DNA of 64,000 nt, from positions 22,517 to 86,516 of the forward strand of contig NW_023365726.1 in assembly GCF_000003815.2 (NCBI RefSeq), read 5' to 3'. The stretch is from Branchiostoma floridae (lineage: Eukaryota; Chordata; Leptocardii; Amphioxiformes; Branchiostomatidae). Shown here piece after piece: positions 1,830 through 64,000 of this stretch; the stretch's first letter is position 1; each line of letters starts with the position of its first letter. The translations under genes were made by a program, and so were the position numbers. Under the pieces are notes generated by a model. That model saw only the letters and a program-made list of their open reading frames with translations, ran no database searches and was not told where the DNA came from.

Positions 1830-3106
1830 TAATGAAGACTTTCACAGGCTAATGTTAAAGTATGGGCGTTTATATGACTTAGTACAACAATAGTATGCAG
1901 GACTACCATGAAGTAAATGTTGTACATGCATACTGCAGGTATTCTTAGCACATAAACTTTTATGCCCAAGGCTATTTACGTAAGGTATGCGCTTGAGTGT
2001 GACACGTTTCTATCCCTGTGAACAGCGATTCTTATAATTAATTCACAAATTCTCTCATTTGAATGTAGTTTTATTCAGCAGAAAAAAATGAAGACAAACA
2101 AATAGCTTTGCTATACGTTGCTGTAAAGCGTTGCTGAATCAGTATTAAGTTACAGACCAAACAATAGCTGTTGGTTAAAGTAAACGGCCACATAGTTAGG
2201 TAGAGCTTCGTCTCAAAAGTCACATGTGTCTCAACAAAGACATACTTTTAAGGCAGACGCCCCCATCATCTTTTGCAAACGCACTCCTAGACAAAAGTCA
2301 CTATCCTTCCACCGGCCTATAAAGGGGTGATTTCAGTCACCATACTAACAACATCAGTGTTAGTACTCACTCATATCTCAAAGGAGCATATTTTCACTTT
2401 AATACTTAAACAATGTACTTTTGAGATTGGCCTCAAGCCCGCTGGATTCCTGCCAACCCGCCAAAAACTGGCACTGTGGACAGTCTAAGGTTCCTTTTCC
2501 CGCCAAAAACGAGGTGTTGTATACAAAAGGTTACGCCCTACTTAAAACCCGTACATTTCCCTTCCAACTTTCGCATTTCATGAGAATAAATTACGATCTT
2601 TGATGGAAGCCAAGTGTAGATACTATCTTATCCGAGCTTCCAGATTGAGACAATCATTAAAACGGTTTTACAGTAGCTCGGAAAAGAGAACTTAAATCAC
2701 CGTCAGCGCGATATTTTCCAGCCATTTTTGCGGTGTCAGCGCGGTACTTTCCGGCCTTTTCTTATTTGGCAATCATAGACCAACTCAACATATCCTCGTT
2801 AATCATAGATAGAAGAAATTTGGAGTCCTTACCCGTAAGGTGATGGCCACCAAGCTGTATCTGTCTGGTCACAAGTTAGGATTACAGTCCGCTGTTGGTG
2901 CCTCGCTCGACGCCTTGAAGTGATCAATCTACTGGTCCAGAAGTTTGTTCTTGCCTACAACCAAAAGAATACTGATGATATTTGTTGCCGTCTCTCCCGG
3001 TGATAGATACTAGTACATGACCAGCAAGACACACGGCATGGTTAGGTAATCTGTGGTAAAGAGAAAATCTCGCCTCGTGGTAGGACGTGCAGCCTGAAAT
3101 GGCGGG
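1830..3106. other. Intergenic, no gene seen
   Basis: No convincing exon. A roughly 33-bp GC-rich motif containing GTCAGCGCG is repeated twice in tandem near 2700-2760. The short frame at 2421-2603 has no family features and no splice support. Confidence 0.5.
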
Positions 3107-3329
3107 AAAATGTGACGTCACATAAAATGGCGTCACCTTTCGCATGCGCGGTGTCGCGGCATGCCACAGTCGTATCTGGCACAGACCCAGACGTTACCGA
3201 AATAGATCCAGATAATTCACATTCTTCACTTAGTGAAAATGTGACGTCATATAGATATGGAGTCACCTTTCTCATGCGCGGTGCCCATCGTTTCTGGCAC
3301 AGTTCCAGACGTTACCGAAATAGAATAAA
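3107..3329. promoter_or_regulatory. Duplicated CRE / YY1-like / NRF1-like module
   Basis: Two direct copies of about 100 bp start at 3107 and 3236 (129 bp apart). Each carries a perfect cAMP-response palindrome TGACGTCA (3113-3120 and 3242-3249), then CATGCGCGGTG, which resembles an NRF1 site, and ends in CAGACGTTACCGAAATAGA. The first copy also has AAAATGGCG, a YY1-like core. These motif classes typify housekeeping promoters in animals, but no transcript can be tied to the module from sequence alone, and a small mobile repeat carrying these motifs is also possible. Confidence 0.5.
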
Positions 3330-5079
3330 CACATCCTTAACTTATTTTCAAAATTCTCTTCTGTAGGGCTAATACATCCGACCCAATCACTTATAACTGT
3401 ACCTGTGACTTAAGACTGGTCTCTTTAGTTAAGATGCCATAATGTTAGTGTTACGTTCTTTCCACGTTAAAATGCACCTAAACTAAATGCAGTACCAAAA
3501 CATTTAGCATTGTTGTATAAAGGCCTGATCAGTGGAGGTGGTAAAAGTTACAAGTACTGTTTCTTACATTATCTTTGTACCTTTGTGATCACGAATTTTT
3601 GACACTGGCATGCACTTCAGTGAGGTGACATCATGTATTACTATTGGCTTAGCGGAACAAAAATATCCAGAGCAAGTATATCCTAAGACGCCTTTTTAGG
3701 CTATAGAAATCACAGTATTACAGTGACACGTTTATGCGTCGTTTGATGGGCGTTTTACTCACTGTCTTTTACAGGACATTGATATGAATACGCGGACCAC
3801 ACTGCAGACTAATAACGATAGATGAACATGAAGGATCTTGCTCTTTCATGACTATTTAGTATGTTCTGTCAGACGTAAGGGTTTCCACATTTAGAAGTCG
3901 CTCCTAGTTTAGGGAAACTCGCGATATTCTTGCTAAAGCTACCCGAATGGTAATGGTACTTATCTGCCCAACTTACAAACTAATTGAAAAAACACCTTGC
4001 ATTATAGTAAAGATAAAGAAATAGAATGATACCTATGCAAATAAATAGCCATCACATCGTGCACTTTCATTTCATTTATTGGAATCATTTTACAAATGCA
4101 TTTACTATTGCTACATACAATCTTGCTACTTACATGGCTATGTGTCCAATTACGGACTAAAGGAATTGTTTTGTTATCTATCAACAAAGGGAAATAGACG
4201 AAAAATCTCCCTACATCAATTCCATATGCCATGGCCACTAGGTTCGATATATGTATATAAAGTTGCAAATATCTTTGAAGACAGTTCATATTATCCAAGT
4301 GTATTCGTCGAAATAATTCTAATAAAACGATAACTGTGTTTTCCTTCTATGTGTAGGACAGTAACGGCGAAAATAAACAAAGGTTGATTTTTCGTCTATT
4401 TATCTTTGTTCAAATTTAACAAAATATCGCCAATATCAACAACTGAATAACACCAACAGTAATACTACTATGTGTTTACCTTTCGCTCATATATTGGGAG
4501 GTGACAATGCAAATACATTTATTACGCATGGAAGAACTTAACACATCAGATGAGAATTCGCATTTTCAACAAAAAATCAGTACATTTATATGTATGGATA
4601 AACGAAAATGTGTTCTTTGTGCACATAATGCAGCACTAGCAGGGATATCTCACCTTCTTAAGATTCTAAAGGACTGTACTACAATGTTCCCAAAGGAATT
4701 CGAATAAGAATTTGAACAAGGACAAAGACAAAGACCACATTGTGACGATGAGTGCGATGTCAAATGCTTTGTCAACAGATTGGTTACGCAATGTTGGGTC
4801 TGGTCGGAAGTTGTCTATCAACCGTCTGTCTGATTTGTTCCAGGCATCCGCATTCTTGCCTGAGCATGAGGAATATTGGACTGTTGTTAGCATATTTTAA
4901 TTTTGATAAGGTCCAAAAATTCTATAAGAAATTCCTATACACCATTCTGCAAACATAGATTCATATGTGGCATTGTGTACAATATGGCATTCATAGATAC
5001 GTTACTAAAGTAGTATATTTTGCTTTAGGTGTTATATGGTACATAACACTACCTAGTAGAGTATACTTACGTGATGCCT
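3330..5079. other. Intergenic, no gene seen
   Basis: Downstream of the MATH-domain gene that ends at 5080 on the minus strand. Short frames at 4002-4333 and 4501-4900 overlap on both strands, have no recognisable composition and no splice-bordered continuation, so I do not call them. Confidence 0.5.
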
Positions 5080-6637
5080 TCAGTTGAGGTTGGAGACATC
5101 CACTGTCACCTTCATGAACATGGTGTCATCCTTGACTAAGGCACGGTGGGTGTTCTTGAGCTCACTGAGCGGCACGAACAGTGGACAGCCACTGGCAATG
5201 TTTGCAGTATTGGTAGGGCGCTGAAATTGTACAATACATTGTTGTACAGAATATACAACCTTATATTCTAGACACAATTTAAGATTCTGTAGCTAGTAGA
5301 GAACCGATTGGTCGGGGTACAATTATTACTGTACATATTTGACATTAGAAAGTGAAGACAACATGGCTTGAGTGATTTTGTGAGGAAGGGTGGAAAGTGA
5401 AAAAAAGATAAGATGAATTCCAATTGCAATATTCGTTTTTGATAACGAGAACATGAATATGATATACGTGTACCTTAAAGGCAGCACTTGCGACGTCTGG
5501 GCGGTAGGATTCCATCACGCCAGAACCTCCATTCTGGTCCACACATTCGAAAGTGATCTAGGAAGATTGGTGCCTATCAATAGATGGTTTATCTATCTAT
5601 AGCCCATCATAAGTACCATTTATACCGATGTTTTACTTCCTCATTACAAACTATCATTAGAAAGTTGTTTCAGGAGAAAATGTTATCACAAAAGACCTGG
5701 AGGAAGCAATTCAAATGCAACAAAATCAAATCAAAGTGTAAAATTATATCACATTACAGCATAAAATCGAACATGCCTGTATGTCATTAAGCGCTTCATT
5801 TTCTATATGAAATTTAGATTTCACAAAGTACATGTATTAACATGCTTAATTGGCAAATGAACACAAAGGCTAGAGACAAGTGAAGCTAGAGACTACCTTC
5901 TGGCGGAAAGGCCACGTCAGAAGTTGGTCGTAGTCTCCCTTCACGATGACTAAGAACACGGAGATGTGCGTTCCCTTTCCCTCGCCGTCTCCGTCCAAGT
6001 AGATACGAGCAAACATCTTGTATCCGTAACGACTTGTGTAGAAATTAGGAGAATCGATTTTTATATCCTTCCCCGAGATGGCGTTTTGTCGCCTGTGCTT
6101 GAAATCGTCGATCTTCCATGTAAGCTTGCCATCGTAGCTGCCAAATTCTAAGGTAGAGAGACGACTGTCCCTTTCCTCAAGTGCGGTTTCATGGCGAGCC
6201 AGGATTCTCTCGTTAGAGCGGAGCCTATTTTGGAGTTCCTTGATCTTCTCCTTGTCGCGACGACGACGGTTCTCACATGTCGCGAGCTGCTGAACTATAC
6301 TGGGTAGCTTACGGAAGAGCTGCTCGCACATCGTGTCGAGGATTTCGCGCGTACGGTTGTCTAAGGCAGCGTGCGTGTTACATAAGTCGTTGTAGATGCG
6401 TTGTAGCTGGTGCAGTTCGTTTCGCACGAATCCCAGCCTTGCTTCACGTTCCCTGCAGTCAGACTGGTGGGCCAAAGAGTGTAGCAATGTGTCGATCAGA
6501 TAAGAGAGGTGGTTGACGCGGTGCCGAAGTCGCTGTGCACCGAGTACATTGTTGTCGTCCTGTCCGTTAGGACTACCCCGGCTCTCTTCTGGAGTGTCCC
6601 CGCTCCTGCCTTCATCATCGCTGCCTCCTCTCTCCAT
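5080..6637 (-). CDS. TRAF-domain (coiled coil + MATH) protein lacking RING and zinc fingers
   Basis: Three coding exons read on the minus strand: 6637-5897, 5557-5474 and 5220-5080, all joining in phase 0 with GT-AG borders, for 321 residues. Residues 1-37 are acidic and low in complexity, about 38-165 are predicted coiled coil rich in E, R, L and Q (TRAF-N-like), and 168-321 form a MATH (TRAF-C) domain with LTWKIDDF, the YTSRYGYKM block, the GDGEGKGTHIS turn, LTWPFRQK, NIASGCPLFVPLS and the closing KDDTMFMKV. MATH domains of this class bind short receptor-tail peptides, and the coiled coil trimerises. No RING or TRAF zinc finger precedes the start, so it resembles TRAF1-like or MATH-only adaptors and could act as a regulator of full TRAFs (inference). 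The start is the first in-frame ATG after a likely 5' splice acceptor. An additional intron (after AAFK) is absent from the paralogue at 28-34 kb. Confidence 0.88.
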
Positions 6638-7059
6638 CTCGAACGGTTGATACCTGCCAATGTATATAGCGAAGCCTCATATCAAAAACACTGGAATTTG
6701 CTTTTGCTCGCCTCTTTATTTGTTTACCACCGGTGTCAACACTGCATAACTTTTGTTCCAACCTGTCCCAAAGTTCAGCAAGAGCCTAGTGAGTTTTAAG
6801 ACAAAGAGGGGAGAATACAGGATGAATGTAATTTTAAGAAAATCGCTGTTGTCGGCGAGTCATTTACATTGTAAAGAATTCGTCGATTCTTTTTAAAGCT
6901 CTGCCTTGGTATTTGCTGAACTTGAGACAAATTGGATAAAAAATCACGAATCCCGTCATTTAAGCTAATCACGTGACCAGGGGAAATTTGCATATATCCC
7001 ATGATGCACCGCGGTCTCAACTATATATACGCTCGAGCCGTGACGTCATCATTTGAAAA
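6638..7059. promoter_or_regulatory. Bidirectional promoter between TRAF-domain gene and HIRAN-like gene
   Basis: Only 422 bp separate two divergent start codons. In order on the plus strand it has an E-box CACGTGAC (near 6970), a POU octamer ATTTGCAT, a ZNF143/THAP11-like site in TCCCATGATGCACCGCG (near 6998), a TATATATA run, and a CRE TGACGTCA (7041-7048) just before AAAATGGCGGG, a YY1-like core that covers the plus-strand ATG. On the minus strand a non-coding first exon may end at 6712 (AATAAAGAG, then GC as donor) and join at 6653, a 58-bp intron; this is weak. Much of this segment recurs near 61.61-61.77 kb. Confidence 0.65.
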
Positions 7060-7365
7060 ATGGCGGGTTCCGGTGATGGTAGCATCCCGGGAGCTCCCGT
7101 AAACACAGTGTTTACGGTTGAACCAAAGCTGTTGCAGGACGCTCCAGAAGTTTTACTTTGCTGTGTAAACACTCACCAGTTCCCAATCCATTTCTCGGGG
7201 GTTTCGTGCATCGAAGTAGTTACACGGCGCTGTCACATAGCAGTACCGGGCGACCCGCCGTCAGTGCGCCGGCTGTGCTTGATGCCTGATCGGAACCTGG
7301 ATAGCCTGTTCGCCGGGGTGACTTCCCCAGTGAAACTACGGATCAAGTCTAGTTCTACCATTGAT
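7060..7365 (+). CDS. First coding exon of a plus-strand gene, probably the HIRAN-like gene
   Basis: An open exon of 102 codons starts at the ATG in AAAATGGCGGGTTCC and ends at a good donor, ATTGAT then GTAAGG, in phase 0. The encoded piece is neutral, with five cysteines and several prolines; I do not recognise a domain, and there is no clear signal peptide or membrane segment. It sits directly behind a CRE/TATA/ZNF143-type promoter, which supports a true first exon. The next coding sequence on this strand is the exon that emerges from the N gap at 8522, so the two are probably one gene, but the joining sequence is hidden and the link is inference. Confidence 0.6.
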
Positions 7366-8521
7366 GTAAGGTTTACTTTATTTCGTAGATCTTTTAGGGA
7401 CCTCCAGTATTTTTTATGGTTCGAAATTTTACAGCAACAGAAAGGCTACGAATTATAGGGGGCATGTAACGTAACGTATCGACTTTGTAAATGTTTTCCA
7501 GTGGCACTATTCCTTTTCAACTCTGATTCAAATCGAGTTCTATTATAGTTTTATGTACTAGTATGTGATAGTTATTTCTTCATTTTACATCAACACCGGC
7601 TATTGTTTTGTTGTCGAGTATTTTCACAGAAAAAAAGGTACAAAGTGATGTATTTTCAGCGTTCAGTCAGTATTACTGGGTATTTGAATAGGACTGAAAA
7701 ACGTGTATAATATGAAAGGTGATTTTTCACAGCCACTTTATTTGTAAAAATTATTTGCTGTCAATGGTTTTACATCATTTCAGTGTTTGGGTATTGGAAG
7801 GGGATAGTTTTTTTTTACTGAAGACTCGTTAGCAATATTCAATTATTTTTTTAAAATACAAATACTAGAGTTTCACGACCCCATACCTTTGGTCAACAAA
7901 CCTATCTTTACTAATAGTAGAAATCATGTCTGTCTGAGGATTGAGGCATTTACAAAAACTTGTTTTTTCCTACCACCATTTGTGGAATGGAACATGTTGT
8001 GAAGTATGTACATGNNNNNNNNNNNNNNNNNNNNNNNNNNNNNNNNNNNNNNNNNNNNNNNNNNNNNNNNNNNNNNNNNNNNNNNNNNNNNNNNNNNNNN
8101 NNNNNNNNNNNNNNNNNNNNNNNNNNNNNNNNNNNNNNNNNNNNNNNNNNNNNNNNNNNNNNNNNNNNNNNNNNNNNNNNNNNNNNNNNNNNNNNNNNNN
8201 NNNNNNNNNNNNNNNNNNNNNNNNNNNNNNNNNNNNNNNNNNNNNNNNNNNNNNNNNNNNNNNNNNNNNNNNNNNNNNNNNNNNNNNNNNNNNNNNNNNN
8301 NNNNNNNNNNNNNNNNNNNNNNNNNNNNNNNNNNNNNNNNNNNNNNNNNNNNNNNNNNNNNNNNNNNNNNNNNNNNNNNNNNNNNNNNNNNNNNNNNNNN
8401 NNNNNNNNNNNNNNNNNNNNNNNNNNNNNNNNNNNNNNNNNNNNNNNNNNNNNNNNNNNNNNNNNNNNNNNNNNNNNNNNNNNNNNNNNNNNNNNNNNNN
8501 NNNNNNNNNNNNNNNNNNNNN
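7366..8521. other. Intron sequence and 507-N assembly gap
   Basis: Bases 7366-8014 are AT-rich intron with no further exon visible. Bases 8015-8521 are N. Any frame drawn across the N run is meaningless; at least one exon border must lie inside. Confidence 0.7.
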
Positions 8522-9159
8522 AGACAGACATTCAGCCTGTAGACCCCAATCTACCATACCCTGACCATTGCAACTGTCAGATGTCTGAATCTGTACAGTC
8601 ACCTCCAATACTTTGCGACATGCAAACAGAGTCACAACTAGACCCTCTTGTATGTAGCTTGGAGGACTTGCATTTTTCTTCAGATGGGGGGGAGTCGGAT
8701 GACCAAGATCTAGATGCAGAGTTGGAAGAAGACGAAGACACAGATAACCATGCTGCAAATCGTATGAGTGGGCAGATTTTTTCTGTTGTTGGCTCTACGT
8801 GGCATACTAGTTGTCAGGCTGTGCTAGATAAGTGTGAAAAACTGAGAAGGGAGGGAGAAGATGTCAAAGTCCAGGTAGCCTTTGAGCCCACCAATATCAA
8901 GGATAGGAATGCCATCGTGTTTGAAATGTTCATAGAAAACACTTGGCAGATAGTGGGTTATTGCCCAGGCCCCAAAGTCCCCAAACTGACAAGAGCAATG
9001 AGAAATGGTTTCATCACTGAGATTGCGATGCACAAGTTGACTCATTCCTTCTGCTTCCCTGCAAAGAAATTCATGTACAAAGTTCAGGTGAAGATTGTGA
9101 AGAGAGGGATTTGGGAAGGCGATGCAAAAGACTACAGGTTCAATTCGGTCATTGTATAA
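8522..9159 (+). CDS. HIRAN-like domain protein, last exon (5' side in gap)
   Basis: The visible frame is open from the gap edge to TAA at 9157-9159, about 212 residues. The first 90 residues are acidic and serine-rich, with a run like DDQDLDAELEEDEDTD. The rest begins at GQIFSVVGSTWH and contains VAFEPTNIKDRNAIVF, then VGYCPGPKVPKL, the order seen in HIRAN modules (REP.N..D.NAI.V followed by a VGY.P turn), and closes with a basic tail. HIRAN domains, best known from HLTF/Rad5, bind DNA ends, chiefly single-stranded 3' ends. Here it would be a small free-standing protein rather than part of a helicase. Family assignment rests on motif order only. It converges on the unknown gene ending at 10635. 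Confidence 0.6.
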
Positions 9160-10634
9160 AAAGTATAACGAGGCAACAACCCATCAACTCGATTTGATCT
9201 GTAGTTTTATTGGGAATTTTGTTACTCGCTTGTGCCTCCACTCTTAACTTTCTGCCCTGACTCACTATATTATTAGTGGAGGGCGATACCACATTGCGAC
9301 TGCAAAAAAAAGTGGTCGCTGGTTGGATTAGGCAGTTGGTTGCTGGGAGAAAGGCAAAAACTGATATCTTATAAGGTCAGAACCCGTATAACACTTAGGA
9401 CTATGTCTATACATGGTCTCCTCTTTCCTGACTTGCCACAAAATAACATCTTTTAGCATTTATTCTATTACCTAGGTTCAGGAACATTCTTACATTTTAA
9501 TGGTTCAAAATACTGACAGTTTACTTCTTATTGTGTTGACAGTGGTCCTCTTATATTTTATTTAAGTCAGTTTTGATAAACTATTGTTCTATCATAAGTA
9601 GGCAGTGTTTGTCTAACAATTAGAATCTGGTGTTTGAATGAAGGTAGATATCTTGAACTAAAATGGTTGATTACTTTCTGCCCTGACTCACTATATTATT
9701 AGTGGAGGGCGATACCACATTGCGACTGCAAAAAAAAGTGGTCGCTGGTTGGATTAGGCAGTTGGTTGCTGGGAGAAAGGCAAAAACTGATATCTTATAA
9801 GGTCAGAACCCGTATAACACTTAGGACTATGTCTATACATGTTCTCCTCTTTCCTGACTTGCAACAAAATAACATCTTTTATGAGTATCATTGAGTAATA
9901 AAACTTAAGGTTCTGAAGAAAACAAAATCTGAAGAGCATGCCTCATAAGTTCAATAACTAGTTTGACAGTTACAATAACTAGTTACAATAACTAGTATAA
10001 CACTTGCAACAATGTATATACCTGAGTTCTCTTCTTTCTTGACTTGCAACAAAATAGCATCTTTTAAGTATACATTCAGCAATAAAACTAAAGGTTCTGA
10101 AGAAAACAATATCCGCAGTGCTTGCCTCATATATACAATAACTAGTTTGACAGAAGGATACTTCAAAGCATAACTAGGCAAAAACCTGTATAACACTTGC
10201 GACAATGTCTATATATACCTGTGGTCTCAAGATCAAAAACTGATTGTCATATAAGGTCAATACCTGTATAACACTTGCAACAATGTCTATACCCGAGTTC
10301 TCTTCTTTCCTCACTTACAACAAAATAGCATCTTTTACAAGTATACATATACAGAATAAAAAGTAAACATACATAAAATAAAAGACTTAGATATATACAA
10401 CAGTGGTGACAGGTGGAAACAAGTGGCTACAGGCACTTTCTTCTGTAAAAAAACAAACAATGCTTGGTACCATGACTAAAAAGTACATTTATATCAAAAT
10501 CTCACTCATCAAAAAATCGGGCAAGTGGGGTAGGACATGAGCTTGCCCAATCAGCACTTTCACTTGGCTAGGACAATAAAACTTTTGGACTTGTCCAACC
10601 CTGGATGTGGATATAACAGTTTAAAAGTAATCTT
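9160..10634. repeat. Array of diverged tandem repeats between convergent genes
   Basis: A 213-bp block beginning ACTTTCTGCCCTGACTCAC occurs at 9247 and again, almost unchanged, at 9673. It is followed by increasingly diverged pieces near 9996, 10189 and 10268, each holding a TATAACACTTGCAACAATG-like core and then the CTTGCAACAAAATA(G/A)CATCTTTTA motif. Several copies are joined by CAATAACTAGTT spacers. This is a degenerate local duplication lying in the 3' space of two convergent genes. No coding capacity is evident. From 10341 to the stop codon at 10635 I see only AT-rich spacer. Confidence 0.75.
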
Positions 10635-13600
10635 CTAAACAGGTGGCAAGCTATTTGGGACCTCAGGCAGTGGCACTTCTGGTCTGTGCAGTATCTGCCT
10701 GATGGTCCCCCTGTTCCTGACCGGCAGGACACCCCTTGCAGTTGTGAAAATCGAAGCGTCTTCCCTTCTACAAGTGCGCAGTCGGTGGAGGCGCAGACGA
10801 CCATCCTCAGGGTCATCATTGAAGGATGGGTAAGTGTCTTCTGCTTCCCTGAACCTCTCACTGATTGTCCAGTAGTAGAAAGGCAGGTCCGGGTCAATTC
10901 TCTTTGAGAATTCCCTGTGAAAGACAAATAAATAATTACAAACCTGTTCAAGTGAAATAATACATGCCATGGACACAAGAATTGTGCCCATACTGCCCAT
11001 AATGACCTGTCCACAAGTGATTTGTAATGTACGTCGCAAGTACAATGTGAGTACATGAAATCTTTCAATAATTTTACAAAAAGACCATACTGTAAATGTT
11101 TGAAAAGATACTTAAATACCTGACTTCTGTAGGCCATCGAGCATGCAACTCCTTGAGGGTAAAGGTGTTTCCCATGTGTCGGTGAAGTCCAGCAAAGAAA
11201 CACTCTACATCGTCTGTCGTGCTCGCTCTTGGATGCTCTTCATAGCCAATTGTCGCACTCTCACTTCTCCGCAGCTCCATTGACTCGATATTTGTTGTGA
11301 CCGCGATGAGGGTTTCTCGGCTCCACCCAAGTACTCCTCGACCGAACCTAAAAAAAGCGACCAGAACAAAGATATTCATTTCACTGGGTCTTTAATCCAT
11401 CTAGGCATTCTCGAGTTATACTATTTCAAGTAAAGCCCCTATCTCACTGGATTTGCAAGTTAAAGAGAGCGGTTACTGCATTTTTTATATCTAATCATAT
11501 TCATTGTGTAGGGTTTTCTTGCCTGTTGATGTCAAGAGTTGAGAAGTCTGGGGGGTAACGGCGCCATGGGGGGGAACGGTGATATGGCATCAGCTCATCA
11601 AGGATCATGTCCATCATGGCTGTGTTCTTCTCCTTCCTCTCTTCCTCTGAAAGCCCTCGGCCATCAGCTGCTTCATGCCATCCAGCAACGACTTCGATAT
11701 AGCATGCTTCCCGGTGATACCCTCTGTGTCGGAGAAACCTGACCATGTTGTAGGACAGCAAGATCTCTGCATCGGTGACAGACTGCTTTCGGAAACCAAA
11801 CAGGGCTGCCTCTGTTAGCCCTGGCTTGGGCTCACCATCTTGCGGATGGAGCGCTTCTTCGAGAGCATGGTGGTCAAACCACCGGGGAGGCTCTTTTCTG
11901 AGGTGACCAGCAATTCTCTTGAGGAGATGGCAATGATCTTCTCTTCTGTGAAGGTAGTTGAGGCCGTCTTTCTCTGGGACATACATGTGGTGTGTGAAAT
12001 CAACCCCCTCAGTTCGAAAGTCCTCTATTCTGAGACGGTATCTGTATGTGGCCATTATTGATCGCAGCATGTCAGCCATGCACTCATGCGAGTTGGGCAC
12101 GGAAAGGTTGAGGGGCCACAATCTGGGGGCACGAGTTGTCCACGCAGTCTTACTACAGCATCCTCCTCTCTCNNNNNNNNNNNNNNNNNNNNNNNNNNNN
12201 NNNNNNNNNNNNNNNNNNNNNNNNNNNNNNNNNNNNNNNNNNNNNNNNNNNNNNNNNNNNNNNNNNNNNNNNCTGTCAATGGCATGCCATTGTCATCCTC
12301 TGCACAGTGAAACCACATCATCAAATTAGTACAAACTGATGGGGAGTTCAGAGTCTATTGTGACATAAGCTGAACACATTTGGTTCGACAAGGGCAGAAT
12401 TTGTGAGAAGATACAAGATGGCTTCACCATATTCCCCCTGCAGAATATCCCTGAAATCAGGTGAATTTGTTGCATTGTAAGTGTACTTGGGCCAAAGATA
12501 TATCACACGGATAAAACATACTAATGTCAGTGGTACTGCACAGTCTGATATAATAGAGAGGCCAAACATTAAAGTCAAGTCAGCAGAGAAAGAAACTAAC
12601 CTCCAACTTTCCGGAGTGACTTCAGCACAGTGTCAGAAGCCATCCTCCTGACACTGTCTTTCACCCCACGAATGATTTCATAGAGATGAATAGGGCGCTT
12701 GTTCCCAAGCGTCCTTAGGGAGTTGAACTCTCCATCCGTAACATCACCTGACAACAAATCACAAAGCACCACATCACTGATAGATTTGCAAAATGAAAAA
12801 GCTCTAAATGGAAAATTAGCTTTGAGTACCTAAAAAAGCCCCCAGCGCACAGGCTCTAGGGCCAACCCACTAGCATTGCACCAGAATATACCAATGGTCA
12901 ACACCTCAGCAAAGACTACAGTCTACAAATGGACTTTATCATGAATTTTCGTTGAAATGTCTCAATAAAAAAGACAAATTTTCCTATAATGGATTTTGTT
13001 CAGCTTTGCATCATTCAACAGAAGCACTGTCATATTACAAAAAACAGACAAGAGTAACACTCTACTTTTACTTTTGTGCTTTAACTTCAACTTTTGTCTT
13101 TACTATGTTTATAGTGGAGTTAAGCTTCACATGTAAAGGATAGACTCTTACCAACAGGTATCAGTCCCAGCTTCTTGGCCTCCTCATGGCACTTGTCCAG
13201 GAACTGCTGGAGGAACTGATCCCGGATACTGTGATATGGAATGAGCAGGATTGGCACAGCATAGGGCTTCTGATTTCGTCTTTCGTCAGACACCAAAACG
13301 ACCAATGCATGATCAGCAGCCACTCTCTTCTTCTTGAAGAGATTGTGCAAGTAGGTTTTGTTGTCTTCTCTCAGTTCCACCAGACATTGGGCCACACGGC
13401 CAGGTTGAGGGGAAGCAGTTCCAAGAGCTGCCAGCAGCCTTTCATACCTACATAATATAGAAAGCATGTGCATGAAGGTAAAGGTAAAGCAGTCATCCTC
13501 AACTGATGTGAAGCATAAATTGTGCTTTTTCAAGTAGCTCAGGTACATGTAGTTGTGCAATGCGGCTTTGCTAACTACTTGATTTATATAACTATGCAGA

Positions 13601-16600
13601 CAGAAAATTGAAGTCAATATTTCTAAAAGTCACCTTTCATAGAAGGCTTTGGCCTGCTCCAGAAGGGTATTGTACTCTACCCTGTCCCATGCCAGGTTTT
13701 TCAGCACATCTGTAGATGAGTTAGCCTGCTCGAATTTCTCCTTATACCTCTTGTTTGCTGCCTCAAGGCCACCTTTCAGCAGATCAATGTCTTCTCCAAG
13801 ATCCTGAAGGAGACTGAGGAGACAGGCCTCTAGATTGCGTGGCACGCAGGACTTCCCAGCTTCCCTGACAAGGACCATGCGTCTGTCGTTGTCAGCCCTT
13901 AGCTTCTCCAGGCTTCCATCCCCAAGATCAACGTCTCCAGCCCATTTGCCCTTTGTAGATGTCTGCAGGGCAACCTTCAAATCACAAGCATCAGCCTTAA
14001 ACCAGACACGTGCTCCTGGCTTCGTCTTGGCAAAGGATTCCAGTGCAGCGATCTGTATATAACAGAACAAACTTTACTGTATACTAATCTGATATGCATG
14101 ATATAGTAAAAGTTTTCCCAACATCCATGTCTATTCTTTAGTAGTGTGTCTACCAAATGAAGCTCAATAATTTCCATTCATAGACATCACAAGGAGCAGA
14201 ACTGCTGATAGTATAATTGCCAAGAAGAGAATGCCTCTGGAACAATTTTTCTCTTTTTTTTGAAGGTTTGTAAACTCACATGGATACTGGAGTTGCCATC
14301 AAACTTCTCAGTCTGTGCCAGTCTGTACATGGTGTCCAGGGAGGGGGCGGCGACATTAATATGTGCCTGTCAGAGAAGGAAGAGAATCATATGTCAAATA
14401 AGACATGACAAGTAAAAAAAAAATAGACAAAAATTACACAGTAACAGAACAAGATGTACTTTCTTCAAATGCACAGTATTTAAGTGCCCCTAATTCTTTC
14501 ACAATTCATGTTATCATACTACTCAAGGTAAATATCACTCTGAGCCAGCCTCCTTAGTACTGTACTAACTTATAGGGAATCTACTGGAATAACCAAGATA
14601 AAAGCTCCTTGGAATAACTAAGTATGTCAAATACATACAAAATGGAATTGAAAAGGTATCGCTATTATGGCAAATATTCAGATACTACATTAAGTATATG
14701 GACTGGTTATCATCACAATTGAAAATTTGTGAAACATAAAAGCCATCTTTATACATGTAGTAACCTTCAATGGGTCCAAGTCAGTGCTTTCCAGGCCACT
14801 CCACCCTGGCCCCCGAAACAGCCTCAAGAACCTGGTTGGAAACTCAGCACACATGCTCTCCAACCAGCTGGCATAATCTGGAGAAATGCTGACCTACAGA
14901 ACATACATGAGTACCATTGTATAAATTAATACCATAACAAGTTGGACATAACACTGTCTCTTGCTATGAAGTCTGCAATCTTCATCATATCTGATATCAC
15001 CATAGATAATTTGTTCACACCCTCCTACCACAATGAACAAAGTTCCTGATCACACTTCTAATTGCCCAACACTACATGGCTTGGGGCCTGGCTAATTGCA
15101 CAGGAAGATGGTAGCAAAAATGAATTGGGGTTTTTGGAAAACCCTGTCCAGTCCAGACAGGGAAATGGGGCGGAAAACCCTGTCCAGTCTGAAAAGAGGG
15201 TCTGCATAGGGGTTCCTGGCAATGCTTAAAAGTATTACTTCAGACAGCACTTACACAGCATAATGAGTGACCCAAAGGTGCAATATGCATGCACACAAAG
15301 TCAGTTCTGTCAAATGCAAAGTACCCAATTAACACTTATCTGGTAGGACATGAGGGGAGAGAATTGTCAATCAAACAATGGATAGTGAGTGTCCGTCAAT
15401 TTCGGGTTGTTAAATAATGGCAATACATTACAAAGACAGGCTTTGAAAGGTTTTCTTTAAATGATAAGTGCGCAGCACTCATTTTGAGAGCTGGTCTGTT
15501 TAAATCCTGGTTTAATAGAATGACTGCGAAAGGTTTCAATATCAACACGACTTTAGTACACAATGTTATAACATTACAATATATTTTACAATGCACTACA
15601 ATAAAGCCGAGATGGCATTTTTCAAACGATAGTACAAGTTGTGAGCTATATAGAACTATGTATCCTTTTAAAAATAATGTGTTTTATTTGCAAAATTATG
15701 CCGTAAGGCTAATAGCATGTTCAGTCTCAAAGACTTAAAGAGTAGACGTTTTTTATATGATGAGAAGTAACAATGATGGATGATTTTTGTTAAGTAATAA
15801 TTTTTTTATGACATTGTGCCACACTTCAAGTTGATGTTATTTCTGTGCTTAGCCGTATCAAAGATAAAAAAAATGTTGTTGTATACTAGTACTTAGTAGC
15901 TTACACCGTATACCCCCATGCAGACCCTCTTTTCAGACAGCTTACAATGTATACCCCCATGCAGACCCTCTTTTCAGACTGGACAGGGTTTTCCGCACTC
16001 CGGACTGGACAAGTTTTTCCGAAAACCCAAATGAATTGAGGTAATTAGTTACAAAATTAGACAAAACTAGCCAAAACAACAAACAAAAAACTAAGAAGGC
16101 ATTCTTTACTGGAAATGCCATCATTTTGAATTAGTACATCAGATAAGTATCATTATATACTGATGCTAACCTGATGTACATTGGTGGCACTGAAGAACTC
16201 CATCTGGTATTGTAGTAATCCAAATGGCATCCTGTCAATTTGGAGCAGAGGGGTGGAGGTGCCAGGCCTGTTGGTGCTCAAGATGTGGGCAAACTTGTAC
16301 AGGATGTTGGGCTTGTTGTGTTCTTGTAGGGTGGACATGGCATTGATGGACTTTGAAAAGAAGTCGGTTGGGTATGTGGAAATATTCTTTGCTGTAGCTA
16401 CAACTGAGAACAGTTTATCACCAAAGGATAGAACTGAAGATGATTGAACGATTTGAGGAAGCAGCATAAGCATGAAAGAATCAAATTCTGATTGGGTCAG
16501 GGCCTTGCAAGAAGACAGTACTGTTGTGACATCATCCTGGCAGCTATGTTCAGTTTGTGTTTGCTGGTCCACAGTCAACTTCTTTGTCTGGCATCCCCTG

Positions 16601-16730
16601 CTGACTGTTTCTTTGGTTTTCTTTGCACGGCTGATTGAATTCGTCTCAAGACCAAAAGACTTCACAGCAGCTTCAAGGGATTCGTCGAATTTCGTCCTCC
16701 ACTTCCTGCACCTGTTCCTCACTGTGTTTG
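10635..16730 (-). CDS. Unknown multi-exon protein with RNase H-fold transposase-like blocks
   Basis: Ten exons on the minus strand: 16730-16171, 14893-14765, 14366-14280, 14052-13634, 13447-13152, 12747-12601, 12299-12273 (enters the N gap), 12172-11523 (leaves it), 11347-11120 and 10914-10635 (stop TAG). Phases agree at every visible joint and no stop interrupts the frame, so this is an intact gene or a recent one. The first visible residues, [11 protein letters not shown], fit the end of a Myb/SANT helix. Exon 14052-13634 has [12 protein letters not shown] and GDVDLGDG; exons 13447-12601 join as [19 protein letters not shown] after a conserved-looking strand-helix pattern; exon 11347-11120 has [17 protein letters not shown]. 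These resemble, in order, the first D, second D and E blocks of P-element/THAP9-like transposases. That is inference from pattern alone. The 5' end is not in view. One intron uses a GC donor (11522). Confidence 0.72.
12173..12272. other. Assembly gap of 100 N inside the unknown minus-strand gene
   Basis: A 100-N run, a common placeholder for unknown length. The exon that starts at 12299 enters it in frame (DDNGMPLT), and open sequence in the frame of [13 protein letters not shown] leaves it, so it hides coding sequence and possibly an intron. Confidence 0.9.
15128..16028. mobile_element. 901-bp DNA transposon relic with TIRs and 10-bp target duplication
   Basis: Inserted in the first visible intron of the unknown minus-strand gene. 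Both ends read GGGTTTT(T/C)GGAAAA inward, with longer imperfect inverted arms around the sequence CTGTCCAGTC and AGAGGGTCTGCATxGGGG (about 90-130 bp per side). It is flanked on both sides by AAATGAATTG (15118-15127 and 16029-16038). A target duplication of 9-10 bp suits Mutator-like elements; with 8 bp, hAT or P would be options. The interior holds only a decayed frame, so it is non-autonomous or dead. Confidence 0.75.
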
Positions 16731-17052
16731 CTGTGAATAGAAAGAGAAACAGTGTGTCACTTAAGAGAAACCTTTGCTATTGACAAAGTATGACTTCATA
16801 TCCCAACACCTTGAGGGACTACACTCACACTAAATGTGAGAAATAATAGAACTTCTTTTGATTTCTATCAGTTCTAAACTTGTTGCAATAATCTATCAAG
16901 GTAAAGACAGCAAGAGCCATTGTTTTTCACTGACCTGAAAGAAGTTCACTGCNNNNNNNNNNNNNNNNNNNNNNNNNNNNNNNNNNNNNNNNNNNNNNNN
17001 NNNNNNNNNNNNNNNNNNNNNNNNNNNNNNNNNNNNNNNNNNNNNNNNNNNN
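16731..17052. other. Spacer plus 100-N gap between head-to-head genes
   Basis: Bases 16731-16952 lie between the first visible acceptor of the minus-strand gene and the gap; 16953-17052 are N. The 5' exons of both the minus-strand gene and the plus-strand caspase would have to be here or overlap one another. A weak plus-strand acceptor (CTGAAAG before AAGTTCACTGC) abuts the gap. Confidence 0.6.
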
Positions 17053-18137
17053 CGAATTTGAGGAGCTGGAAAGTAGACAAGGAGCTGACAAAGACACAGG
17101 TAAGAACTTTTTGTGTAAACATTATAATAACAATTTTGTAAAGACACGATTTCTTAAATGTGGTTGTGAAGGCATGATCTGAATTACAATTAACAGGATC
17201 AAAAATATCTTTAAAAAACGCTGCAGTACCAAGGTCAATCAACAGGAGACCTAAAATCGACACAATAACCCCATCTACAAAACATGGCAATCCATTAAGT
17301 GGTTCTTGAGATATATCCCAATACATCATTTTGGGTCCAAGTACCTCCAGTTTTCATTTAGGTTATCATAAAAAGTACATAATAAAACTAAAACTGCGCA
17401 TGAATACGTACAATGTAAAATTCCTCCTGGTCTACACAATTCTGTAAGGTTTTTTTTTAATCCATCACCCACCAATTATATAAGTTTGCAAATGGTACTT
17501 ACGCCCAAACTTTTGAACCTTAGAACGTCTGCAAGAGATCTTCGAACGCCTCAACTTTATCGTGACGGTCTTCACCAACCTCAACTTCGCGGGGATGATA
17601 ACAGTTATGAGAGACCACGGGAAGATGGACTTCTCCCAGTACGACTGTTTCATCTGCTGTATCATGTCTCACGGGGCGCTCGGGAAGGTCTTCTCCTCTG
17701 ACAATGTAGGTATTGATATTTGTGAGCTGATCAAACCCATGGAGACCCAAAGGTGCCCCTCCCTGGCAGGAAAACCTAAGTTGTTCTTCATCCATGCATG
17801 CCAAGGTGACAGAACACAGGGTAAGACGACACGGAGTGACTTCACGCACGACGTGAAAGCCTTACCTTCTATGCCTTCCTTTACTCACGAAGCTGACGTG
17901 TTCTTGGGTCTCTCCACTGTTCCTGGGTTTGTAGCCCCTCGCAACAATGACGGGTCGCCCTACATACGCTTTCTGACTGAGGCACTTGACAAAATGTCCC
18001 CGGTCCACGACCTCTTGAAAATTATGACAACAGTCTGTAAGCAAATGAATGACATCAAAGACGGAGGGCTGGGATATGTTTCTTGCAACCTCAGCACCCT
18101 GAGGAAACGGCTCTATTTTCTCTGTGATTCAGACTGA
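17053..18137 (+). CDS. Caspase-8-like cysteine protease, 5' part in gap
   Basis: Two exons are visible. 17053-17099 leaves the gap in frame and ends ACACAG then GTAAGA; 17524-18137 ends with TGA. They join in phase 1 to give ESRQGADKDTERLQEIFERL, the early p20 block (R.G.D.D...L...F). Then come FICCIMSHG with the catalytic histidine, LFFIHACQGD with the catalytic cysteine, a linker rich in T, S and D, and a p10 part with LGLSTVPGF, APRNNDGS (substrate-pocket arginine) and LRKRLYF. The active-site loop has H where most caspases have Q (QACQG/QACRG), otherwise the caspase-8-like HACQGD form. Caspases of this type cleave after aspartate in apoptosis and inflammatory signalling. Any prodomain (DED, CARD or death domain) is missing from view. 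About 250 residues are seen. Confidence 0.9.
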
Positions 18138-21258: not shown

Positions 21259-23283
21259 CCTTTACCTTTACCTAGTCCCATCCTCATGTCTGAGGGTCGG
21301 GGACTATGGTAGCATCCAGTATCAGCCTCCTCCACTCCCTTCTGTCTCTGGCTCTGTGGGCGCACTCAGCCAGTGGCATGCCCATCCACTCCCGGATGTC
21401 ATCGCCCCACCTCCTTCGTGGTCTCCCGCGGCTCCTCCTTCCGTTGATGGACCCTTGTAGAATGTGGGTGCTGATGTTGCCTGCTCTCGTGACGTGACCA
21501 AAGTATTGGAGTTTTCTTCTTTTTATGATGTTCAGCAGTGTCCTGTCTACTCCTAGCTGTTCTAACACAGAGTCATTTGTGCGATGTTCCGTCCAGCTGA
21601 CACGGAGGATCTTTCTGTAGCATTTCATCTCCAACGCCTGAATCCTGCGGATGTCACTGGCGTGTAGAGTCCATGCCTCACAGCCATACGTGATCACCGG
21701 CCAGACAAGAGTCCTCAGCACCTTCAATTTGATGGCTGTCTTGAGGGATCTGTCCTTCCAGATCACATCTAGACTTCGGAGGGCTGCCCGAGCTGTACCT
21801 AGACGTATGCTGATCTCATGGCTGCAGCTGGCTGTTTGTTCCATGGTAGAACCCAGGTACTTAAAACTAGAGACCTGTTGTAGTTGCTCTCCTCGGCAGG
21901 TGACTGTCACTACGGTGGGTTCCTTGGTAACGGCCATCACTTTGGTCTTTTTGGTGCTGATTTCCAGCTGATACTCACTAGAGACGCTGTCTGTGGAGTC
22001 CAGCAGTTCCTGGAGTCCTTCAGGTGTAGTGGCTATCAGTGCTATGTCGTCGGCAAAACGGAGGTTGTTGATGATCCTGCCACTTACATTGACACCAATG
22101 TTGGGCTGTTCCTCCACCGATTCCCTCATTACAGCCTCTGAGTAGAAGTTGAAACACATCGGCGACAACAAGCAGCCTTGCCTTACACCCTTACTGACTA
22201 CAAACCACTCTGTAAGATCATCTTCCACTCTCACTGCTGCTTGCTGGTCCTTGTAGAGATTGCATAGCAACTTCACCAAGTGCCCTGGAACTCCCATGGA
22301 TTCCATCACCTTCCACAAGGTTTGATGATTAACAGAATCAAAGGCTTTCTTGTAGTCGATGAAGGCCATAAAGAGCTTCACGTTGCTTTCCCTAGCTTTC
22401 TCCATCAGTATCCTCAAGTTGAAGATCTGGTCCCTCGTCCCCACCCTCTTTCTGAAGCCCATCTGCTCTTCAGCAAACTCCTGCTCTGCCACTCTCTCCA
22501 TACGCCGATGGAGGATTCGGAGGAGGACTTTACTAACATGAGATATGAGGGCTATAGTGCGGTGTTCTGAACAGTCAATGGTGCCAGGTACATTGGGGAT
22601 GGTAATGAAGACAGACTTCACCCAGTCAGACGGCCACTGACCAGTGCTGACGANNNNNNNNNNNNNNNNNNNNNNNNNNNNNNNNNNNNNNNNNNNNNNN
22701 NNNNNNNNNNNNNNNNNNNNNNNNNNNNNNNNNNNNNNNNNNNNNNNNNNNNNNNNNNNNNNNNNNNNNNNNNNNNNNNNNNNNNNNNNNNNNNNNNNNN
22801 NNNNNNNNNNNNNNNNNNNNNNNNNNNNNNNNNNNNNNNNNNNNNNNNNNNNNNNNNNNNNNNTATTGTCACTGTACAGCTTCTCGCAGTATTCCTTCCA
22901 TCTTTGAAGAATGCTTTGTAGTTTGGTCAGTTATGCGGTTATCAGCTGCTTTGATGTTCCTCTGTCTAGGCTGAAAACCTCGTCTCAGTTTCTTGATGGT
23001 AGAGTAGGCTTTCCTTGAGGTGCTGTTGCTTTGCAGGCCCTGTTCTTATATCGACACACTGTTCCTCTAACCACTTTGCCTTGTCTATGCCTAGCTTCTT
23101 TCTGGATTTGTCTGTCCAGTTCTCTGTAGCGTTGGTCCCCATTTACAGTGGTGCTGCGCTGGGCTTTCAAGTCCCGCCTTCTGTCCATAAGGTCCAGTGT
23201 ACTTTGTCTTTATCCAGGGTCGGTTCGCTCTTCTTGGTGCTTTACCAAGGGTCTTTGCTGCAGTGGACTTTATTACTTCGTTG
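21259..23283 (-). mobile_element. RTE-type LINE, degraded, minus strand
   Basis: A 445-codon open frame (22621-21284) encodes most of a reverse transcriptase: FIDYKKAFDSVNHQ, SKGVRQGCLLSPMCFNFY, LRFADDIALIA (the FADD catalytic box), YGCEAWTL, and the basic C-terminal GRPRRRWGDDIREW that typifies RTE/BovB-like elements. Upstream pieces beyond the 22654-22863 gap (MDRRRDLKAQR, YRELDRQIQKEARHRQGK, STIKKLRRGFQPR) lie in different frames, so the element carries frameshifts and is dead. The 3' end has a short (GGTAAA)n tail at 21259-21274, usual for RTE. The endonuclease part is not recognisable in view; a second 100-N gap (23284-23383) lies at the 5' side. Confidence 0.85.
22654..22863. other. Assembly gap (210 N) in the RTE LINE
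   Basis: N run between the intact RT frame and its frameshifted upstream part. Confidence 0.95.
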
Positions 23284-38012: not shown

Positions 38013-38305
38013 ACACCGTGCTGTGTTTTATTTATATCATGCCAACCTGACATACACACATGGATAATGGATGCTAATACACGTTTTGTTTTGTTTTGTT
38101 GTTCTTTATGCTTATGTTACAGTACTAAGTTTACCCTGGACGAAAGATCTATCTGCGCACCTGGTACACTAGATTTTGTGTCTTCTACGTAAATTAGTCT
38201 AATGACAGAGTTCATCATATATCAGGCATGTTACAAAACATCAACATGTACCAGCGGCCACATGTACAGCAAAAAAGCAATATTATTGTTAATTTACATT
38301 ACCCA

Positions 38306-61368: not shown

Positions 61369-63242
61369 AGAAATACCCTGCGTCTCGATCCACCCCCACC
61401 ACCCTCCACCCACACTCACACACAAAACGCTATCGCTCCGGATGTCCGCGAATGAGGCTAGCTAAGTATGATTCGCATCTTACACGTGCTTATACTTGGT
61501 CGTGACTGACAACTTCAACAGGTTCTGGTATAGTTAACATATCAGCATCTTAATGTGCAATACTGAAAGTATCCAACACACGCATACAGCTAAGATGCCT
61601 GATGAAAAGCAATGGAATTTGCAGCTCACCTCTTTGTTTCCCTATCGGTGAAGTCCCCGGGTAGATCCAGACATACTGTGGAATACATGTGCTAGTTTCA
61701 CCTTGCTAGCGTTTGGACTCGGTCACGTGACAAGGGGGGATTTGCATATATCCCATGATGCACTTTACTTTCGATCGCGTTCGATTTTCCGCGCGAACGC
61801 CGGCAAACCCGGAACTGCAAAGCCCAAGATGTAGGGCATGGGCATCTTCAAGATGTTGGCCATGTTGGACAGCAGCCAAGAGAATTAGGTGGGTAATTTT
61901 CGTCATTTTTTAGAGTTCGGGAATTGTAGTTTTCCATGAAAAGTGTTGATGTGTGTGATACCCGAGGAACATGTTTAATTTTGAGGTAAATGCCGATAGA
62001 CTTCTCATGCGTAAATCCCGTTGTCGCATGTTGGAGATTTGCATATAGTGCTATCAAATCTTCCGCATTGGTTAATCAAATAGTGGTGCTTTTTAAAAAA
62101 AAGTGTAGTTTACGTATGGTAGATTGATTGTGTGTCTAAAAAAACGAAAAGCACCAAAAAGCACTCATAGGAAGATCACGAAAACAGCCGCGCAGGATCG
62201 CATGGTTGGTCGTGTTTACATACGCCTGACAGTCGCGCGGAGGCCCTTTAAACTCATTAACATATGCAAATAAGCCGGTAAAGAAAAGATGGCGGACACG
62301 TAAACAAACACGAACGCGCCGTAGTTTTACCTTCCTAAAGCAATTTAGAAAGTTTGGAAAGATTGTTACAGTATGGGGACTTAGCAGACATTCAGGGAAA
62401 ACCTATTCAAACGGAAAATGTTGTTGGTTGGACTGGAAACTCGCTTAAAATGCGGAGGTGAGTGGGTATCGTATATGTCGCAAAGGCGGAAGTTACCAAG
62501 ATGGATTTTCGTACTTCGGGTCGATGAATTCACTTGAAACTCATGAGAGCCCAACCTGAACGTATTACTGTACTTGCAAAAGAACTAGATTTATGTAGCA
62601 CAGACTTTTCAAGGGTGGGCGTTTGTGGGCTTAATATTCGCTAAACAGACGGTCGCTCGGGATCACATAGCCGTAGAACTTGTTTACCTATCTTGTCATT
62701 ATTGACTGGTTAGGCTTGCTTGTGAGTTATACGAAGGAGTCTGATCTACATTTTCACCTTCACTGTCATATACGTACTGTCGTTGATATTTGGACCAATA
62801 AATCTTGTCAAAAAGTAGTTGTAGTCTTTCAGTTTCATAATTTGAGAGTCTGTCAGAATTTGTAAGTTATCAAGTGGTGCAGTGGTGTGTAAGATTTGTA
62901 ATTTATGGATTATTGTTGATTCCCCAGGTTAGCAGTGATGTTTATGAATATCATAGTTTATTTTCGAGAGTTTTTAATCCTTGCCAATGAAACAGAAAAA
63001 AATTGCATACCAGACCAGTTTATATCTTATGGGACATCCATAGATAGAAAATTATCCTAAATTGTAATGTTAAAGGTACATTTTGCTTTAATTTTGGTTC
63101 TTTATTGACATGTTCAATAACTGTGTCTCATTCTCCCAAAGTGAGCAAAGTGTCATCAATAACTTCATTGAAATACCTCAAGGAAATATATTCTATAAAA
63201 GGGTAAAAATCATCTTAGACTGTCCAATATTGTTTCCCTCAG
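61369..63242. promoter_or_regulatory. Second copy of the bidirectional promoter and 5' region of the SANT-like gene
   Basis: Around 61610-61765 the sequence repeats features of 6690-7010: AATGGAATTTGCAGCTCACCTCTTTG (a minus-strand AAAGAG donor, here with normal GT), CACGTGAC, ATTTGCATATATCCCATGATGCAC (octamer plus ZNF143/THAP11-like site). Near 62.26-62.30 kb ATGCAAATAAG and AAAGATGGCGGACACG form another octamer/YY1-like cluster that may be the transcription start of the gene beginning at 63243. No coding exon is seen between. Confidence 0.5.
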
Positions 63243-64000
63243 TCATGATGTCAACTCCATCAACGCCCCAAAAGAGGCCACATGTTGGCGGGAGTGGTCA
63301 CACCCCGTCTGGGAAGAGGAGGCAGCACAAACATGGAAAGAAAGATGGAGGAGCTCGCCGACCTCTCTCTTTCCTAAGTCCTAAGGTGATTAATTGCCAT
63401 AAGACAGAAAATGTTTCCTCGATCAAGATCATCATTGGCTGTTGTGGTATGGTCCAACAGGATGTAGCAAATTTACAAATTGTTAGGTTTCACTGATGAC
63501 CTTACAGGCTAAGGACAGTTTTACTGTTGTCAATTATACCATTAATACAATTATTTCACTAATGTGATGTTATTTCATAGTGCACTGATGTGATGTAATT
63601 TCATAGTATGTTTATTACATCATGACTCCTTGCAGAAACTATTCAGAAGTCGAGTAAGATTGGTGAGCCAAGACTGATGATGACACTCAGTACCAGTTAA
63701 ACTATAGCAAACTTTGCTATAGTTTCTCCTTGCTACAAATTACATGTATCCTGTATTTGCAACAGATAACACGATCTTTGGGGCACATGCTCACCCCAAA
63801 GATTCAACTGGCCAAGTCCCCTCGGCCTGTGAAACACCATCAGTGGACTGATAAGGAGGACAAGGCATTGATCCAGTTTTTGGATCTAAGCCACCTTGAT
63901 CAGGATGAAAATGTCACTGACACAGCATCCTGGCCAATGAGGCACGCTAACAGTCCCTTTTGGACAGAGGCTGCAACATCAATCAAGACGGCAACCAGGA
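63243..64000 (+). CDS. Myb/SANT-like domain protein, 5' part (runs off window)
   Basis: Three coding exons: 63243-63385 (ATG at 63245), a 27-bp microexon 63636-63662, and 63766 to the window end, all joined in phase 0 with clean GT-AG borders. The N-terminus is basic and proline/serine-rich (GKRRQHKHGKKDGGARRP), a likely nuclear signal. The third exon has HHQWTDKEDKALIQFLDL and later SPFWTEAATSIK, the first helix with its tryptophan and a second aromatic-led helix of a Myb/SANT fold, which binds DNA or histone tails. The window ends inside the domain. The first visible exon of the gene at 10.6-16.7 kb starts [11 protein letters not shown], which would complete such a domain, so the two may be paralogues (inference). 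Confidence 0.7.

Follow-up and report, generated by a model that had tools for sequence, protein, structure and literature searches.

To our knowledge, P elements are single-gene transposons with a THAP-type transposase, and we know of no second gene in the THAP9 or zebrafish Pdre2 elements. PIF/Harbinger and ProtoRAG encode a second protein beside the transposase. In ProtoRAG the two genes are convergent and the second protein is RAG2-like; in Harbinger the second protein is Myb-like. Mobilisation of Harbinger requires two element-encoded proteins, according to the available parts of PMC2836001. The available parts of PMC7776569 place a THAP domain in the P transposase. The locus considered here is a gene at 10635-16730 of the window, by which is meant the whole 64,000-nucleotide stretch of Branchiostoma floridae DNA that was analysed (contig C168:22517-86516). 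This gene is neither lone nor domesticated. It very probably encodes the P-element/THAP9-like transposase of a cut-and-paste DNA transposon, which is young, measures about 12.45 kilobases (kb) and carries two convergent genes. The element is like PIF/Harbinger and ProtoRAG in encoding a transposase plus a second protein, but both the transposase family and the second protein are different here.

As a whole, the element resembles the Drosophila P element in its 31-base-pair (bp) inverted repeats and its internal-deletion derivatives. It differs in length (12.45 kb versus 2.9 kb), in its target-site duplications (9 bp versus 8 bp) and in its inverted repeats, which are imperfect here and perfect in the fly. 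It also differs in its 11 transposase exons, its second gene and the lack of a THAP match. These facts on the fly element are taken from the accessible parts of PMC7776569 and PMC8230255. The likenesses to THAP9 and zebrafish Pdre2 are a P-type transposase with an insertion domain, inverted-repeat flanks and deletion derivatives. Those systems differ: they have a THAP domain, their repeats measure 13 bp and their duplications 8 bp (PMC7776569 and PMC10983969, each in its accessible parts). Because the THAP domain and the 8-bp duplication, two defining P features, were tested for and neither was found, the element is called P-like and not a P element.

The genome searched is that of the window itself (513,431,437 bases in 431 contigs). 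The last transposase exon has 16 matches in it, of which five are at 100% identity (one of them the window), three at 97-99% and eight at 40-59%; at 97% or higher, the exon is thus found at eight places including the window. Seven matched regions outside the window were retrieved (C1, C7a, C7b, C2, C9, C15 and C233). In six of them the alignment to the window runs as far as the N gap at 16953, with 97.3-99.6% identity in the transposase part, and C233 is more divergent. C1, C7b, C2 and, at lower identity, C15 extend to a common left end near 6977. The stretches aligned for C7a and C9 stop at this point. Beyond the common ends, the flanking DNA differs between copies.

The element begins with CAGGGGGAATTTGCATATATCCCATGATGCAC and ends with GTGCATCATGGGATATATGCAAATCCCCCCTTG. 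Its 31-bp terminal inverted repeats are 96.8% identical to one another, left versus right, in the C7b copy. The element is 12,456 bp long in C1, 12,454 bp in both C7a and C7b, and 12,386 bp in C9, where the length includes N; the ends of C1, C7a and C7b are identical in position. A scan of the genome for element ends, the counts of which are lower bounds, finds at least 11 left ends (nine at 98% identity or more) and at least 13 right ends (12 at 100%). Exact 9-bp target duplications are present at seven of the eight loci where both flanks were read (Table 1). C7a and C7b differ at 6 of 12,454 positions and have distinct insertion sites and duplications. A 758-bp deletion derivative, made up of 698 bp of the left end and 68 bp of the right end, has its own target duplication.

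The earlier note on this DNA had read the gene as a domesticated or young transposase-like one. A domesticated host gene, derived from a P-like transposase and kept for a host function, would be consistent with the multi-exon, open frame. It would also be consistent with the related transposases, which stay protein-like: between C7b and C233, nonsynonymous divergence (dN) is 0.32 versus saturated synonymous divergence (dS) over 848 codons. This explanation is very improbable, since the copies are many, nearly identical and bounded by terminal repeats and matched target duplications, two insertions differ at only 6 of 12,454 bp, and the window frame is probably shifted. A domesticated single gene was rejected on the copies at different sites. 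What had been described as a domesticated gene next to immune genes turned out to be a mobile, multi-copy element at a misoriented scaffold joint.

Several features of the copies weigh against a simple set of insertions. The duplications of C9 are unmatched, and those of C2 and C15 match only between the outer ends, with a further end inside (a right end in C2, a left end in C15). The right ends on C302 and C5 have one common flank. With the flipped piece in the window contig, these features would fit near-identical copies that are artefacts of collapsed or duplicated scaffolds. That explanation is extremely improbable, as seven loci have different flanking DNA and each has its own exact 9-bp duplication. 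The mobile element is therefore preferred. The right flank of C9, AGCTTCCAC, is identical to the DNA beside the inner left end of C15, and this points to an assembly swap. An empty site for the window insertion was not found; the joined flanks matched only their own two places in the contig.

Two copies are mosaic in appearance. In the C15 element, the gene-2 half is of the C233 type (dS 0.245 to C233 in gene 2) and the transposase half is of the young type (98-99% identical to the young family). It could be a recombinant of two subfamilies, or it may be an assembly chimera instead, which is suspected because its inner left flank matches the C9 right flank. In C233, identity to the young family is 97.9% for the last transposase exon and 68-77% for the other matched exon pieces, which looks like gene conversion.

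In the window the element is split. By alignment to C7b, element positions 1-10184 lie at window positions 6978-16952 and positions 10185-12454 lie at 64000-61731. Window position 64000 is also the last base of the contig, which is 86,516 bases long. The duplication TCACGTGAC is found beside the left end, at 6969-6977, and in reverse beside the right end at 61731. The two element parts join base for base once 17053-64000 is turned round, so this scaffold piece is flipped.

The transposase gene of C7b has 11 exons and encodes 1,094 amino acids. Exon numbers run from 1 at the 5' end to 11, and residues are counted on the C7b protein. The earlier note had described a ten-exon frame with matched phases and no stops. 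The exons, the phases and the terminal stop at 10635 on the minus strand are borne out, but two 5' exons were missing: the exon taken as the first, at 16730, starts at an acceptor, and two more exons precede it in C7b. The exons are joined in phase with AG acceptors and GT donors, one donor being GC, and the acidic blocks that the note named are present in them. The joined window exons contain one stop, in the last codon, versus a mean of 44.8 in 200 letter shuffles, with the frames on either side of the N gap at 12173-12272 picked separately.

The frame of the window copy is probably not intact, as had been claimed it was. It contains two extra bases beside this N gap relative to C7b, and the frame seemed intact because the gap lies within an exon and concealed them. 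C1 and C2 read through exon 9 with a different peptide at the place of the gap, and in six other copies the match to the window peptide is broken in two at that place. From these comparisons, the window copy probably has a shifted frame, or else an error at the edge of the gap. Outside the window, four of six copies (C7b, C7a, C9 and C15; C233 left out) have open transposase frames. The C7a protein is identical to that of C7b, and those of C9 and C15 are 99.8% and 99.5% identical to it. C1 and C2 have a frame-breaking gap. More distant transposase relatives, at 44-67% identity, were read in pieces from C233, C10, C1:31.73 Mb (megabases) and C6:25.61 Mb; the one at C1:31.73 Mb has a TGA inside one exon.

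With the insert left out, the D-D part of the transposase has its best Pfam match in PF21787 (TNP-like_RNaseH_N), the P-type RNase H profile. No other transposase family is among the Pfam matches listed. After removal of 123 residues past the GDVDLGDG block, the window protein scores 23.1 bits (E=1e-4), slightly short of the 24.6-bit cut-off, and the alignment spans from just before D411 to past D633. Eight controls in which the N piece was shuffled or exchanged score 12.6-16.3 bits, and two controls that keep the N piece and shuffle the C piece have no PF21787 match. Among the relatives, C10 scores 17.2 bits unedited and C1:31.73 Mb scores 19.6 bits edited. A composite of C233 and C10 pieces scores 26.9 bits, over the cut-off. 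We read this pattern of scores as homology. The earlier note's P-element/THAP9-like assignment with D, D and E is largely borne out, through the insert-removed match and the P-like spacing of D(2)H and D..E.

The putative catalytic residues D411, D633 and E974 follow one another in the correct order and are conserved in the aligned relatives that cover them. The order D, D, D(2)H, D..E is that of the Drosophila P-element transposase (DmTNP). The D(2)H motif, D788xxH791, is invariant in five of five aligned members and agrees with the [C/D](2)H motif, a P signature in the accessible text of PMC8230255. Its context is EDHCHLLK here and CDVPHLLK at a P-type locus on C11. D788 is 186 residues from the proposed catalytic E974, versus 192 between fly D339 and E531. 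D971xxE974 is spaced like fly D528xxE531, and H875-E876-x-x-D879 like fly F443-D444-x-x-N447, although E876 and D879 stand here where the fly has D444 and N447. The fly residue positions are from the accessible parts of PMC7776569 and PMC8230255. The protein here also differs from that of the fly in its 123-amino-acid insert between the first two catalytic blocks and in a longer stretch before D(2)H. The distance from D633 to D788 is 155 residues versus 36 in the fly, and that from D411 to D633 without the insert is 99 versus 73.

Other search results weigh against P-type identity. The full 1,094-amino-acid protein has no Pfam match at E<=1. The uncut window transposase scores 13.6 bits against PF21787 (E=0.083), below the cut-off, which is passed by no unedited family sequence. 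In the insert-removed construct, the nuclease family PF18154 comes second at 16.8 bits. Two of five members match PF21787, at best with E=0.04, and one member matches an unrelated family at 7e-4. When the genome is searched with PF21787, three other P-type loci are found and this transposase family is not. Profile-profile comparison with two other P-type loci is weak (E=0.32, probability 0.2%); its register is as expected, pairing D411 with the aspartate of WDEM/FDEM and VDLG with T[DE]LG. Sequence searches of the PDB up to E=10, with two exon sets, the insert-removed construct and the family profile, find no transposase; each gives none or two or three matches, at E of 0.16-1.4. These misses say little, because a P-type protein of the same genome is also unmatched in the PDB up to E=0.01. 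The structure predicted for exon 9 from a contiguous window stretch has a predicted local distance difference test (pLDDT) score of 36.4 and is an unusable model.

These weak profile scores, together with the unmatched THAP domain, the 9-bp rather than 8-bp duplications, the second gene and the long inserts, would be expected of a different, possibly undescribed RNase H transposase superfamily that converged on P-like motifs. This alternative is unlikely, given that PF21787 stands alone as a transposase family among the listed matches and that the motif order and the D(2)H-to-E spacing are close to those of the fly. The P-like assignment is preferred. Searches of viral and prokaryotic collections find no relatives.

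Pfam scans of the transposase N-terminus find no THAP match, where the start codon is a proposed one and a further 5' exon is possible. The N-terminus has the pattern WT..E..ALI.F....FW..AA...R and weak Myb matches, namely PF00249 in the young family (E=0.25) and PF13921 (E=0.034) and PF13837 (E=0.17) in C233. It looks Myb/SANT-like. Three loci elsewhere in the genome are over the PF21787 cut-off as P-type RNase H loci (C19:10311853, C11:17076605 and C6:14994104) and lend themselves to comparison within one genome.

Gene 2 has two exons, encodes about 359 amino acids and lies on the plus strand in the left part of the element, convergent with the transposase. It is open in seven of the seven copies read. 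Its dN/dS is 0.18 for C7b-C15, 0.21 for C7b-C233 and 0.29 for C15-C233, and it is under purifying selection. The dS behind the first two values is about 1.5-1.6, near saturation, which counts against them; that of C15-C233 is 0.245.

The HIRAN assignment of gene 2 is carried by a distant member. The homologous gene at C1:31.73 Mb scores 25.2 bits against PF08797 (E=1.4e-5), over the cut-off of 24.7, and is the only one of six sequences scanned to do so. There the HIRAN gene (C1:31739032-31739358, minus strand) lies tail to tail with a transposase of 44% identity (C1:31735166-31737617, plus strand). Set against this assignment, five sequences of the young family and its close relatives score 14.0-17.9 bits, below the cut-off, and PF20398 scores slightly above PF08797 in the window and C7b gene-2 proteins. 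HIRAN is a six-stranded barrel; a single-sequence model of the domain is mostly strands, is unusable (pLDDT 44.9) and has no fold match. No SNF2, RING or nuclease match is present in the gene-2 pieces scanned. The likeness to HIRAN proteins (HLTF/Rad5 and stand-alone bacterial ones) thus lies in the distant member's passing of the Pfam cut-off, and the difference is that gene 2 is encoded by a transposon, beside its transposase.

Gene 2 could be a captured host gene or a passenger without a role in transposition, and HIRAN is known as a host DNA-repair domain (PMC4666394, in its accessible parts). This is rather unlikely, as the gene is open in the seven copies read with dN/dS of 0.18-0.29 and is paired tail to tail with the 44%-identity transposase in the distant element. 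A role in transposition is the reading followed below.

In the proposed mechanism, the transposase would consist of an N-terminal Myb/SANT-like region and an RNase H-like DDE core interrupted by inserts; the stretch that separates the D(2)H motif from the catalytic E would hold an insertion like a GTP-binding domain. It would bind and pair the element ends and would cut and join DNA with D411, D633 and E974, as the P transposase does. Staggered target joins 9 bp apart would give the 9-bp duplications. From the analysis as a whole, we strongly infer that end binding, D/D/E cutting and joining, and the 9-bp target duplication are the work of this transposase.

The fly enzyme leaves 17-nucleotide 3' single-stranded extensions, according to the accessible parts of PMC7776569. 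The corresponding parts of PMC4666394 suggest that HIRAN recognises the 3' end of single-stranded DNA, and also find structure-specific HIRAN binding to fork-like DNA. The gene-2 protein may hold or protect the 3' ends of the excised transposon or of the donor break; this is proposed because P excision leaves long 3' ends and HIRAN has been described as recognising 3' ends. A distinct P-like lineage with a HIRAN protein as its dedicated 3'-end-binding partner, replacing reliance on host proteins, is a tentative and somewhat doubtful possibility. The P family would be widened by a relative that was mobile recently and combines a Myb/SANT-like N-terminus, 9-bp duplications and a HIRAN partner that is conserved. 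HIRAN would be an unusual partner for a jumping gene, and the element would allow the handling of the long 3' single-stranded ends from P-type excision to be tested directly. The very young copies with open frames are material for functional assays. Among the open-access papers listed by the literature searches, none was seen to describe this element or a HIRAN gene in a eukaryotic DNA transposon; Repbase and most subscription papers were outside the search.

Table 1. Features of the element in the window and target duplications at other loci (window positions unless a contig is named).
Feature	Position	Strand	Remarks
Target-site duplication, left side	6969..6977	+	9 bp, TCACGTGAC
Left ~10.2 kb of element, up to N gap	6978..16952	+	C7b element positions 1-10184
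Left terminal inverted repeat	6979..7009	+	31 bp
Gene 2 exon 1	7060..7365	+	102 codons, GTAAG donor at end; no Pfam match; boundaries transferred from C7b
Gene 2 exon 2, visible part	8522..9159	+	exon start hidden in N gap 8015-8521; HIRAN-like domain follows an acidic linker
HIRAN-like domain of gene 2	8764..9156	+	below Pfam cut-off in window copy
Central repeated DNA between convergent genes	9351..10361	.	repeated matches to same copies in window-versus-copies alignment
Transposase exon 11	10635..10914	-	with stop codon
Transposase exon 10	11120..11347	-	TTDDVECFF, proposed catalytic E
Transposase exon 9	11523..12299	-	N gap 12173-12272; D(2)H motif; WHEAADGR
Transposase exon 8	12601..12747	-	DVTDGEF, proposed second catalytic D
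Transposase exon 7	13152..13447	-	insert end, then ALVVLVS..KPYAVPI
Transposase exon 6	13634..14052	-	proposed first catalytic D, then most of 123-amino-acid insert
Transposase exon 5	14280..14366	-	
Transposase exon 4	14765..14893	-	
Transposase exon 3	16171..16730	-	
Transposase exon 2, last 18 nucleotides	16935..16952	-	cut by N gap
N gap	16953..17052	.	following piece 17053-64000 attached in wrong orientation
Target-site duplication, right side	61722..61730	-	9 bp, TCACGTGAC; within flipped piece
Right 2,270 bp of element	61731..64000	-	flipped; element positions 12454 down to 10185
Right terminal inverted repeat	61733..61763	-	31 bp
Transposase exon 1	63245..63385	+	47 codons, proposed start; in flipped piece
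Transposase exon 2, first 235 nucleotides	63766..64000	+	Myb/SANT-like region; in flipped piece
Target duplication	C1		GATTCCGCC
Target duplication	C7a		GGCCACGAT
Target duplication	C7b		TAGCAGGTG
Target duplication	C2		GGACTGACC; match between outer ends only, 17.4 kb apart; extra right end inside
Target duplication	C15		TATTAGGGC; match between outer ends only, ~15.6 kb apart; extra left end inside
Target duplication	758-bp derivative on C7		GTACGGCCC

The neighbourhood of the element changes with the orientation of the flipped piece. A caspase frame is present at 17520-18137 (PF00656, 3e-35). With the piece turned round, this frame is about 44 kb from the right end of the element and not 0.8 kb from the transposase exons. 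The caspase neighbourhood was rejected as a functional clue, being a product of the flipped scaffold piece. The earlier note's placement next to immune genes is unsupported for the caspase. On the left side, a TRAF/MATH frame at 5870-6676 on the minus strand (PF21355, 2.1e-23) is about 300 bp from the left end of the element. A second TRAF-like frame with a MATH domain is present at 28472-29356 on the minus strand (PF21355, 2.6e-25; PF16673, 3.3e-21). Three long reverse-transcriptase-like frames, which by their motifs as recognised by eye we take to be those of retrotransposons, are present at 21284-22930 (minus strand), 31011-32711 (minus strand) and 38193-39863 (plus strand).

Within the element, the intron between transposase exons 3 and 4 contains, at window 15119-16037, inverted repeats of 39-44 nucleotides that are about 740-840 nucleotides apart. 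Matches to them recur in six other element copies. They are possibly the ends of a small non-autonomous transposon nested in the element. Nine further places in the genome match gene 2 at 29-32% identity, with one TAG inside. The position of the stop is common to three of the four HIRAN-like frames read (L057 1430-1945, L060 160-681 and L061 125-640), and in L063 the stop is elsewhere. The TAG-bearing HIRAN-like copies are perhaps a non-autonomous family that was amplified with the stop in place.

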